Shown here: in pieces, positions 244 to 52,618 of the stretch
Numbering within the stretch: the stretch's first letter is position 1
Layout: the number at the start of each line of letters is the position of its first letter
Assembly: GCA_021773055.1 (NCBI GenBank)
Contig: JAJFKV010000064.1
Span: 1-64,000 of the forward strand
DNA length: 64,000 nt
Origin: Woeseiaceae bacterium
GTDB lineage: Bacteria > Pseudomonadota > Gammaproteobacteria > Steroidobacterales > Woeseiaceae
Reading direction: 5' to 3'
The notes under the pieces: model-generated
Databases searched by the model: none
Told to the model about the DNA's origin: nothing
Seen by the model: only the letters and a program-made list of their open reading frames with translations
Translations under genes and position numbers: made by a program

Positions 244-558
244 ATGACAGCTAATCAAAATATACGTATTCGCCTGAAGGCATTTGATCACCGTTTGATC
301 GACAAGTCGGCGCGTGAAATTGTTGATACCGCCAAGCGAACAGGCGCTACGGTCAAGGGTCCTATTCCATTGCCGATGAGGAAGGAACGTTTCACGATCC
401 TGATTTCTCCGCACGTGAATAAAGATGCTCGTGACCAGTACGAGATTCGAACGCACAAGCGTTTGATGGACATCGTGGACCCTACTGACAAGACTGTCGA
501 TGCGCTCATGAAGCTGGAGTTACCGGCTGGTGTAGACGTTCAGATCAAGTTGAATTAG
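244..558 (+). CDS. rpsJ: 30S ribosomal protein S10 (uS10)
   Basis: The 104-residue protein matches uS10 (about 103 aa in E. coli), with [14 protein letters not shown] near the start and [28 protein letters not shown] at the end, read here as overlapping short motifs. S10 sits in the head of the small subunit and also serves as NusE in antitermination complexes. The ATG at 244 follows a purine stretch (AGGG, about 7 bases upstream). In most gammaproteobacteria rplC follows within tens of bases. Here the next gene starts 710 bp later, so rpsJ appears to have been left with the str/tuf transcript. Confidence 0.98.
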
Positions 559-595
559 GCGCTCTAATAACGATCGGCCCGTCGCCGACATACGT

Positions 596-640
596 GTGAC
601 CAGGAATGGCTCGCTACGCTGCTTTTATTTCCTGTCACAC
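596..640 (+). repeat. Variable-arm palindrome E1 (GGAATGGCTCGCT core)
   Basis: Arms GTGTGAC (594-600) and GTCACAC (634-640) enclose inner arms AGGAA/TTCCT with one bulged C. The core reads AATGGCTCGCTACGCTGC followed by TTTTATTT. It is the shortest and least perfect of four copies (E2 746-816, E3 42091-42205, E4 52450-52532). Confidence 0.75.
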
Positions 641-745
641 CTATCTCGCCGATGTGCCTGACAATTAGTCAGGACGCTTAGCCAGCACCTCAGGTTTGGC
701 ACGACGTTCGTGAAGATCCTAAATCACTTTCCGAAGCTGAACGGG

Positions 746-816
746 CGGTCTGGAGAGTGTTTACAGGAAGTAAAGCGGACCGGAGGGAGCCATTCCAGTA
801 AACACTCTCCAGACCG
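746..816 (-). repeat. Variable-arm palindrome E2, perfect 19 bp arms
   Basis: CGGTCTGGAGAGTGTTTAC (746-764) is repeated exactly in inverse orientation at 798-816. The 33-base interior, read on the minus strand, is the family core TGGAATGGCTCCCTCCGGTC then CGCTTTACTTCCT. The core is similar to the other copies but the arms are unrelated to theirs. There is no T-run, so it is not a classic rho-independent terminator, although a very stable RNA hairpin would form here. Confidence 0.85.
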
Positions 817-869
817 ACCTAAATCTGTCCGGCTAAGTCATTGATTTTAATGGTATCGACTTGAAGTAG

Positions 870-1165: not shown

Positions 1166-1268
1166 TTGCTTAAGAAGAATCAGCAGTCGCCAATCGAAGT
1201 GATTGTGTTGAAAATTTTGAAATTAAAGATTGTCACTGACCAAACGAAGTCGGTGCGAGGTTTTGAAA

Positions 1269-1913
1269 ATGACAATGGGTATTGTTGGCCGCAAATGCGG
1301 CATGACACGTGTCTTTACGGATGATGGAGTTTCGATTCCAGTCACCGTAATCGAGGCACAGCCAAACCGAATCACTCAGGTGAAAACCGTTGAGACTGAT
1401 GGCTATCGCGCGCTGCAAGTTGCGTCCGGCAGCCGTCGTGCTTCTCGTGTACGGAAACCTGCAGCCGGCCACTTCGCAGCAGCGAAGGTAGAAGCCGGCG
1501 ACCTTATGATGGAGTTTCGACTCGAAGACACCGACGACGGTGATTTCGAGAAAGGGAATGAACTCAAGGTTGACCTCTTTGAGGAAGGCCAGAAGGTCGA
1601 TGTTATCGGGACGTCAATTGGTAAAGGCTTTGCCGGCGCCATCAAGCGCTGGAACTTCAGCATGCAGGACGCGACGCACGGCAACTCGCTGGCGCATCGT
1701 GCTCCCGGTTCTATTGGTCAGAACCAAACGCCTGGTCGCGTTTTCAAAGGTAAGAAAATGGCCGGCCATATGGGTAACGTTCAACGTACCGTACAAAATC
1801 TCGAAGTTGTACGTGTTGATGCCGAGCGCAACCTTCTCCTGATCAAGGGTGCTGTCCCGGGTCACCGTGGCGGCAGCGTAGTTGTTCGTCCCGCCATTAA
1901 GACCAAGAAGTAA
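1269..1913 (+). CDS. rplC: 50S ribosomal protein L3 (uL3)
   Basis: The product is 214 aa from the ATG at 1269, close to the 209 aa of E. coli L3. This start has GAGG eight bases upstream; the ORF track extends to 1230 without support, and ATG 1275 is an alternative. The signature [20 protein letters not shown] contains the glutamine that PrmB methylates in enterics. L3 is an early assembly protein that reaches toward the peptidyl transferase centre. It is the first gene after the structured gap, so here it heads the remaining S10 operon. Confidence 0.97.
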
Positions 1914-6317: not shown

Positions 6318-6340
6318 GTAGGAGCGCGCCCTGCGCGCGA
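6318..6340 (+). repeat. GTAGGAGC REP-like element R2
   Basis: GTAGGA is followed by stem GCGCG (6324-6328), a five-base loop and CGCGC (6334-6338), ending GA. It fills the rplN-rplX gap. When folded, its GGA lies about 11 bases from the rplX ATG, so it might add a Shine-Dalgarno across the hairpin. Confidence 0.85.
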
Positions 6341-33109: not shown

Positions 33110-33841
33110 ATGGTCCAATCCATCATGAAGCGAGTTTCGGTCTCTGTCACCTTGTGCCTGCTGCTAACGAGTGGTTTGGCGTCGGCGGCGGAATGCGTGG
33201 TGCTGCTGCATGGCTTGGCGAGGTCGTCCACGTCACTCAACAAGATGCAGGATGCGCTGGAAGAAGACGGATATAGCACGGCGAATGTAGACTATCCATC
33301 GCGCGAGCATGAGATAGCGGAACTCGCCAGCATAGCCATTGAAGACGGACTGGCGACTTGCCGGGCTGGAGAAGATATTGAGAAGATCCATTTCGTCACG
33401 CATTCGCTGGGTGGCATTCTGGTACGCCAGTACCTGAGTACTGAGTCAATCGATGAACTGGGGCGCGTGGTCATGCTTGGCCCACCAAACCAGGGCAGTA
33501 GTGCAGTTGATAATCTGGACGGAATTCCTGGATTTGACTGGATCAATGGCCCGGCAGGGCACCAGCTGGGCAAAGGCAAGGCCAGCGTGCCGTTGGCCCT
33601 CGGAGCAGTGGAATTCGAACTGGGCGTTATCGCAGGTAATCGCAGCATAGACCCGATTACATCGGCCGTGCTGGAGAATCCGGACGATGGTCGGGTGTCC
33701 GTTGCAGATACAAAGGTCGAAGGAATGGATGACTTCGTCGTCGTTAAGCATTCGCACGCTTTTATGATGCGCATGCAGCGGCCGATAGATCTCACAAAGA
33801 AATTTCTGCGCACCGGTAGTTTTTCAGGACGGGCTGACTAA
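33110..33841 (+). CDS. Exported lipase-like alpha/beta hydrolase
   Basis: Translation starts at ATG 33110 (directly after the previous stop) or 33125; both lead into the signal peptide VSVTLCLLLTSGLASAAE. The mature protein begins VVLLHGLARSS (oxyanion loop), has the nucleophile elbow THSLGG near residue 105, and a C-terminal KHSHAFMM that can supply the catalytic His. It resembles periplasmic lipase/palmitoyl esterase-like proteins. Substrate unknown. Confidence 0.83.
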   Translation: MVQSIMKRVSVSVTLCLLLTSGLASAAECVVLLHGLARSSTSLNKMQDALEEDGYSTANVDYPSREHEIAELASIAIEDGLATCRAGEDIEKIHFVTHSLGGILVRQYLSTESIDELGRVVMLGPPNQGSSAVDNLDGIPGFDWINGPAGHQLGKGKASVPLALGAVEFELGVIAGNRSIDPITSAVLENPDDGRVSVADTKVEGMDDFVVVKHSHAFMMRMQRPIDLTKKFLRTGSFSGRAD

Positions 33842-40916: not shown

Positions 40917-42095
40917 GTGAGCTTAGAAAACCCAGACACAGCCGTCCCGATGAGCGCTTTCGAGCGTCGTTCGGTGGGCGTCGTTGCGCTGATTTCGATG
41001 ATTCGGATGTTCGGGCTGTTCGCGCTGCTGCCGGTGCTGTCGCTATATGCAACCGATCTTGAGCACGCGACACCGTTGCTGGTTGGGTTGGCCGTCGGTG
41101 CCTACGGGCTGACACAGGCGGGGTTTCAAATACCACTGGGTGCATTGTCAGACCGGGTCGGCCGAATTCCCGTCATTCTGCTGGGATTGGGGATATTCGC
41201 AGCCGGCAGTGTACTGGCGGCCGTCAGCGACTCCATTTACGGAATTATCGCTGGGCGTCTATTGCAGGGTGCCGGCGCGATCTCGGCAACATTAACCGCG
41301 TTGATCAGTGACGCGACCCGCGAAGAGGTACGTACGAAGTCGATGGCTATTTTCGGCGTCGGTTTTGGCCTGTCATTCATGATCGCTATGGTCGGTGGAC
41401 CGCTAATCGCAGCGAAGTTCGGTGTGCAGTCGCTGTTTTGGGTGGCGGCGCTACTCGCGGTGGTGGCCGGGTTCTTGCTGTTGCTGTTGCCCAAAATTCC
41501 GCGGGTGCGAAAAAACGAAAGCTGGAGCCTGCTGCCAGCCCTTCGCCCGGACCTGTTGCGGGTCGATTTCTACGTGTTCCTCCTGCATACGATCATGACC
41601 GCAACATTTGTGGCGTTGCCGTTCTTGTTGACCCGGCGCCTTGAGATGACGCTAACCGATCACTGGAAAATGTACATCGGTGCGTTGCTATTGTCATTGG
41701 TCATCGCCGTCCCGATGATTATGAAGGACCACCGGCAGGGACAGGGCCGGCTTATCGGTATTGCGGTGAGCATGATACTGGTTGCACAACTGTCGCTGAC
41801 GTTCTTCAGTTTCTCCGTAATTCCGGTGTTTCTCTCACTCGTAGTCTATTTCGGTGGCTTCAACTTCCTCGAGGCCGGACTACCGGCCAGGCTGTCGGTG
41901 CTGGCGGACAGCGACCTCCGCGGCGCTTCACTAGGCGTGTTCTCAAGCGCCCAGTTCCTGGGAGCCTTCATTGGCGGCCTCATAGGCGGCCGATTCCTGG
42001 GCCAGGGCCGACCGACCGACGTCTTTTTCGTCTGCGCCTTACTAGCTGGAATCTGGCTGGCACTGCAGAGTTTCGGCCGATTCCGCAAATCGTAG
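40917..42095 (+). CDS. MFS transporter (multidrug-efflux-like)
   Basis: The GTG at 40917 with AAGGAA about 8 bases upstream gives 392 residues; the track extends into uvrA. There are twelve hydrophobic helices and the antiporter motif A sequence [14 protein letters not shown]. The order uvrA-MFS-ssb is common in gammaproteobacteria (for example Pseudomonas). It lacks the extra C-terminal domain of YajR. Substrate unknown. Confidence 0.88.
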
Positions 42096-42205
42096 CGGTC
42101 TGGGGGTCTGATCCGGCAAATCGAATCGGTCCGGAAGGCCGTAACTGCAATGGCTCGCTACGCTGCGCTTTATTTGCTGTAACGGCCTTCCGGACCGCTA
42201 CGATT
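42091..42205 (+). repeat. Variable-arm palindrome E3 with nested arms
   Basis: Perfect 16 bp arms CGGTCCGGAAGGCCGT (42127-42142) and their inverse (42182-42197) enclose the core AATGGCTCGCTACGCTGCG then CTTTATTT. The inner arms here are GCAA/TTGC where other copies have GGAA/TTCC, a compensating change. An outer CGTAGCGGTC (42091-42100) also matches GACCGCTACG (42193-42202), so a second arm is nested. Confidence 0.85.
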
Positions 42206-52449: not shown

Positions 52450-52532
52450 GGTCGTTGGCCAGGAAACTGTTTTCTGGAATGGCTCGCTGCGCTGCGCTTT
52501 ATTTCCTGTAAACAGTTTCCTGGCCAACAACC
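52450..52532 (+). repeat. Variable-arm palindrome E4
   Basis: Arms of 24 bases (GGTCGTTGGCCAGGAAACTG plus TTTT, 52450-52473, and inverse at 52509-52532) pair with only two mismatches. The core is GGAATGGCTCGCTGCGCTGC then GCTTTATTTCC. It lies between the ends of convergent genes. Its right flank has GACATCCGGCG, similar to AATCCGGCG beyond E3. Confidence 0.85.
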
Positions 52533-52593: not shown

Positions 52594-52618
52594 GCGACAT
52601 ATCAGGTCGCGCTCCTAC
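52594..52618 (-). repeat. GTAGGAGC REP-like element R8 giving the hisI stop
   Basis: On the minus strand GTAGGAGC precedes a GCGAC/GTCGC hairpin. The TAG in its head (rc of 52615-52617) is the stop codon of hisI. R1 likewise contains the rpsC stop. Confidence 0.8.

Follow-up and report, generated by a model that had tools for sequence, protein, structure and literature searches.

Four short palindromes, E1 to E4, in a stretch of 64,000 nucleotides of a Woeseiaceae bacterium (contig JAJFKV010000064.1; the whole stretch is called the window below) are part of a large family of short DNA hairpins, so far undescribed, that is found at gene ends in marine-sediment gammaproteobacteria. The family resembles the dispersed hairpins of the REP type, yet it lies outside the described REP families. 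The best explanation, to which a probability of roughly 0.6 was assigned, is that E1 to E4 are dispersed, REP-like non-coding hairpins that were very probably spread by mobility and whose arms are recopied from each other. The elements, and the ribosomal protein genes beside the first two, are located in the window as follows.

250..558, plus strand: rpsJ (ribosomal protein S10; PF00338, E=4.9e-37), upstream of E1
576..658, minus strand: E1, 83-nt hairpin 3' of rpsJ; core on the plus strand at 605-627, folding strand minus
740..822, plus strand: E2, 83-nt hairpin between rpsJ and rplC, inverted relative to E1; TAAAGCGGACCGGAGGGAGCCAT on the plus strand
1230..1913, plus strand: rplC (ribosomal protein L3; PF00297, E=8.6e-21), downstream of E2
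42121..42203, minus strand: E3, 83-nt hairpin with an MFS-transporter gene on one side and ssb on the other; core on the plus strand at 42149-42171
52450..52532, minus strand: E4, 83-nt hairpin flanked by a convergent pair, an ORF without a Pfam match (plus) and a PRA-CH-domain ORF (minus); core on the plus strand at 52478-52500

The four palindromes had been reported in an earlier note on this DNA, and all of them were confirmed at their positions, with E2 lying on the opposite strand. In the 83-nt frame, the arms of E1 to E4 are paired at 20 to 24 of 27 positions, which was equalled in 0 of 20,000 shuffles per element. The fold of E2 to E4, calculated as DNA or as RNA, beats that of dinucleotide shuffles by 8 to 10 standard deviations; E1 is weaker than the other three (z of -2 to -5), and its arm register is off by one. 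The arms had been described as 12 to 24 bp long, and this was corrected to about 27 bp in a constant register. The shared interior described as a constant core is real, but E2 carries a coordinated core variant (GGCTCCCTCCGGTCCGC), the core of E3 reads GCAATGG...TTTGC, and that of E1 has small changes near its 3' end. Likewise, the arms are variable between copies, as had been stated, but they are not all unrelated, since arm subfamilies with shared motifs such as CGGGAGACTGTTTACT exist among several copies of the same genome.

The core GGAATGGCTCGCTNCGCTGCGCTTTATTTCC was matched 11 times in the genome of origin with up to three mismatches, compared with 0 matches for the reversed control pattern, and a covariance model made from 73 diverse copies placed about 14 copies in this genome. 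Using this model, the hairpin family was detected in 61 of 73 genomes of the genus (0-61 copies per genome), patchily in the order (39 of 196 genomes and 12 of 60 genera), and in a few more distant gammaproteobacteria; most of these genomes are draft metagenome assemblies, which makes the absences soft. A scan with the core pattern was positive in 25 of 60 relatives, all from the same genus. Among the matches listed from a scan of species genomes, the titles were mostly Woeseiaceae or Gammaproteobacteria, with a few Coxiellaceae or Myxococcota. Viral contigs, plasmids, and phages, scanned for the element with regard to a phage or plasmid origin, gave 0 matches. The window has no match to any RNA family in Rfam 15, the hairpins at five other loci gave only weak Rfam 15 matches, well below gathering scores and mostly to microRNA precursors, and no description of the hairpin family was found in the papers searched for such anatomy, motif, or host family. 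The earlier note had likewise recognised no named family. It had also considered that only four copies might exist without any excess over expectation, or that the arms might turn out to be conserved once more copies were collected; the copies far exceed four, and the arms stay variable among them.

The unit of about 83 nt consists of two complementary arms of about 27 bp with a near-invariant tip of 23-27 bases between them. In the alignment of 73 copies, each of the 27 arm pairs is altered on both sides in at least some of the copies, and 89.2% of the cells in the arms are paired (55.9% in shuffles). The covariation score of 0.836 compares with 0.206 after shuffling and at most 0.18 for slid partners. 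Covariation of all 27 pairs strongly supports one of two alternatives that had been proposed, namely that selection acts on the structure and leaves the arm sequence free; the proposal can be sharpened in that the fold is kept on one strand, the complement of the one originally quoted, and in that the tip is itself structured. Read on the folding strand, the tip is GARTAAAGCGCA-[GC-GNA-GC]-GAGCCAT, in which an asymmetric internal loop, itself conserved, is closed off by a small inner hairpin with a GNA triloop. In DNA, small hairpins of the type C-GNA-G have an unusually high stability. Variation of the tip is limited to one free position, the N of the GNA triloop, and one coordinated triple variant, in which the closing stem changes from GC/GC to CC/GG; the inner tip pair covaries, with GC, CG, AU, and GU versions. 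Relatives of the element in other gammaproteobacterial families have longer tips. A distant gammaproteobacterium with 9 matches has mostly a four-pair inner stem, GGCC-GAA-GGCC, with the constant flanks TAAAGCGCAG and GAGCCAT unchanged on either side.

Additional sequence was observed inside some tips. The orthologue of E1 after rpsJ in one genome (L209) has about 76 nt inside the tip, holding three small hairpins, and a mini-hairpin of about 20 nt, CCCGTCAAGCGGGATCGAG, recurs within the tip of the element (L157, L198, L255, L057, L124, and L128), in different species, in either orientation, and at an insertion point that differs. Two sister species (L096 and L121) differ by a swap of the E1 and E2 core variants, with the arms still matched, which suggests tip conversion between neighbouring copies.

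The folding strand was identified from arm mismatches. Whichever arm it hits, a mutation has the same chance of showing up as G.T or as A.C on a given strand, and an excess of either marks the strand on which wobble pairs are tolerated. On the strand that reads the core, isolated mismatches comprised 177 A.C, 26 G.T, 175 pyrimidine-pyrimidine, and 24 purine-purine; on its complement, G.T and purine mismatches dominate. The A.C excess was also obtained with one copy per arm group (86 versus 13) and when elements were counted (41 versus 7, p=6e-7), and it is therefore the complementary strand that folds. The ratio of A.C to G.T was 46:4 with genes running with the core strand (>E>), 21:4 with genes running against it (<E<), and 75:15 with convergent genes. 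That the asymmetry is the same for every direction of the flanking genes argues for a property of the element itself and against selection in the transcript of a neighbour. The joint change of the two arm sides suggests that it is the folded shape of a single strand that counts. In 27 similar copies from a related genome of another family (G488), wobble versus A.C among isolated mismatches amounted to only 11 versus 3 (p=0.06). No relation to replication-strand orientation was detected from GC skew in element orientation (0.0004, p=0.93).

No copies were located inside predicted genes. The gaps that hold an element were convergent in 66 of 113 cases, compared with 36 of 354 element-free gaps at the same loci (p=3e-24), and divergent in 2 of 113, compared with 103 of 354. 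The hairpins often begin at a stop codon, and some occupy all of the space from one convergent stop to the other; among solo elements in convergent gaps, no significant preference for the nearest stop was seen (23 versus 18). Two copies no more than 173 bp apart were present at 20 loci, mostly as inverted pairs in one arrangement. No transposase or other recurrent gene was found beside the elements, the neighbours all being ordinary genes. Persistence past stop codons and between convergent genes may reflect the loss of insertions elsewhere, which would break genes or promoters.

Occupancy was compared at matched sites across species. After rpsJ, where orthologous copies of E1 occur at the same position in many species, the element or a recognisable derivative is present in 13 of 27 genomes of the genus and others are empty; in one sister genome (L206), a hairpin with a T-run that resembles an intrinsic terminator takes the place of the element. 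Among 15 species at this site, the arms differ at 30-33%, the core at 12.7%, and the downstream DNA at 48% of positions. Retention there is long and the core is less diverged than its surroundings, and the element could have a host function at this site instead. E3, located before ssb, was found only in its own genome among those with a readable upstream region, and the ssb site of the relatives either is unoccupied or holds a GTAGGAGCGC repeat or other hairpins. Other matched sites vary between sister species: some hold the element with compensated arms, some hold it inverted, and some lack it. In one such comparison (L007 versus L255), the inverted segment seems to reach past the arms, and inversion of the whole element and of the tip are inseparable there. 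The flanks of recent copies and the empty sites revealed no clear target-site duplication, and the boundaries are imprecise. On the basis of lineage-specific occupancy and copy number, the hairpin family is very probably mobile.

Other repeats were recorded in and around these gaps. GTAGGAGCGCG repeats, typical of RAYT-type REPs, are present in the window at 6318, 6664, 7246, 8802, 10135, and 14541 (plus strand) and at 52608, 29215, and 15103 (minus strand), and in relatives they occur in the same gaps as E elements. A palindrome family with GGTGACAGTGACC / GGTCACTGTCACC is present at 33139 in the window and fills E-type gaps in some relatives (L228, L261, L262, and L266). A separate, larger imperfect palindrome, GGGTATTTGCTCGCGCTTAA..., adjoins E elements in some species (L047, L053, L107, L124, and L154).

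The manner in which the arms change was best seen in G488, which has 58 matches, many of them similar. Comparison of 27 copies of one type gave 1755 compensated differences, of which 817 (47%) were transversions, and 166 one-sided differences (104 G.T, 24 A.C, and 38 other); these counts are pairwise and do not represent independent events. Divergence among the same copies was 0.3% in the core, 14% in the inner arms, 25% in the outer arms, and 18-25% in the adjacent flank, so the arms diverge as fast as adjacent flank and yet stay matched. Independent point mutations followed by selection should leave many unpaired intermediates, above all for transversions. Copying of an arm from its partner in a single event explains the pattern. 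Template switching between inverted repeats is reported both to homogenise arms and to invert the spacer (PMC8604942). We infer that arm-to-arm copying of this kind accounts for the compensated changes better than slow selection does.

Four other explanations were weighed against this one. Pure selection on a structured single-stranded DNA or RNA, with compensatory point mutations and no arm copying, is unlikely. Covariation of all pairs, a bias of the mismatches towards wobble, and an invariant tip are what a selected fold classically produces, and at the rpsJ site one genome (L192) has A.C, a wobble on the folding strand, where its sister (L193) has A-T; however, transversions such as make up nearly half of the compensated changes in the 27 similar copies are impossible via a wobble intermediate, non-wobble one-sided states are rare, and the arms remain paired while diverging at the speed of the flank. 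It is rather improbable that the hairpins are RNA elements used by the host, i.e. bidirectional terminators or 3'-end mRNA-stabilising hairpins, with the stem under selection in a neighbour's transcript. The abutment of the hairpins on stop codons, the frequent filling of a convergent gap, the terminator-like replacement at the rpsJ site, and the long retention there are in keeping with such a role. Against it, the wobble-tolerant strand is independent of neighbour direction and is antisense in >E> gaps, the column consensus has no T-run or T enrichment after either arm, and the orientation is inverted at some matched sites.

Mobilisation as a REP/BIME element by a RAYT (Y1) transposase was already disfavoured and is regarded as very unlikely. 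Size, extragenic position at 3' ends, inverted doublets, and variable copy number are all REP-like, and RAYT-type genes are present in 26 of 41 genomes of the genus. However, at the base of the hairpin GTAG was found in 19 of 168 copies compared with 9 of 168 background positions (partly TAG stop codons), CGTC was found in 16 compared with 21, and arms of 27 bp in which every pair varies contrast with the stems of 5-13 bp known for REPs (PMC3733652). Two element-rich genomes, G034 and G001 (95 and 97% complete), have no Y1 match whereas element-free genomes have Y1, no element was found at 30 Y1 loci, and ordinary GTAGGAGCGC repeats occur separately in the same gaps. Least probable, and hardly to be expected as a general mechanism, is the other alternative of the earlier note, in which insertion copies the adjacent host DNA in inverse orientation and each arm would thus duplicate the target site. 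When the adjacent 120 nt were searched for a third copy of every arm, the mean score was 7.4, compared with 7.0 for the arms of other copies, which is no general excess, and arm subfamilies are common to unrelated sites. The opposite arm, and not the flank, seems to be the copied template. The observation in its favour comes from E3 (window 42088-42101 and 42190-42205), where the right arm contains an exact inverted copy of AATCGTAGCGGTC, with which the upstream MFS gene ends, stop codon included. This match is better than that between the right arm and the left arm of E3, which is a diverged version. Unlike the other copies, E3 looks locally templated and is a possible exception.

Under the preferred explanation, a mobile hairpin family with arms recopied from each other, the tip would serve as the recognition module for the agent that propagates or uses the element, and pairing would be the sole requirement on the arms. 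One arm would be repeatedly re-synthesised from the other, through template switching in replication or during propagation of the element itself, and a mutation in a single arm would be either erased or written into both. Arms would differ between copies and match within a copy because one is re-made from the other. Template switching alone predicts no strand asymmetry, and an added stability requirement is therefore needed; selection for stability of the fold on one strand would decide which mismatches survive. Against this explanation, no mobilising enzyme was found, and Y1 transposases fail to track the element. Tentatively, the family may represent a previously undescribed class of mobile single-stranded DNA (or RNA) hairpins that is defined by a structured, GNA-capped tip and not by its ends, rebuilds one arm from the other during propagation, and has its own putative mobilising or binding protein.

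Palindromic repeats in bacteria are usually identified through conserved stems or through tags at their ends, and a family with variable stems would escape repeat finders. With many similar copies per genome and hundreds of compensated differences, the hairpin family constitutes a natural record of arm-to-arm copying, and the mismatch asymmetry provides a simple, general test for the folding strand of a palindrome. If a protein binds the constant tip, abundant sediment bacteria would possess a new system, either a mobile element or one that organises the chromosome.

Several known systems share features with the E family. The attC sites of integrons act as a folded single strand of one polarity, are located just after stop codons, and have a conserved stem base. 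The one-polarity folded strand and the post-stop position are alike in the E family, which conserves the tip whereas attC conserves the stem base. MITEs are similar in being small, non-coding inverted-repeat elements without a gene and with lineage-specific occupancy; in the E family, by contrast, the terminal arms vary between copies, and no parent transposon was found. The GTAG and CGTC super-families of REP/BIME elements and their RAYTs (PMC3733652, PMC2817692) likewise consist of short palindromes outside genes, at 3' ends and in convergent gaps, in many copies and as inverted doublets, but the E family lacks the GTAG/CGTC tag, has 27-bp arms, keeps the tip and not the stem constant, and showed no association with RAYTs. 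REPINs (PMC3116915) share the inverted doublets, the compensatory changes in the variable part, and the predicted single-stranded DNA hairpin, and their organisation is the opposite, with conserved ends and a variable middle where the E family has a conserved centre and variable arms. Finally, quasipalindrome correction by template switching (PMC8604942) involves the copying of an arm from its partner as well as spacer inversion, and both were seen here; it is, however, a mutational process of any inverted repeat, whereas the E family is a dispersed family with an invariant, structured tip.
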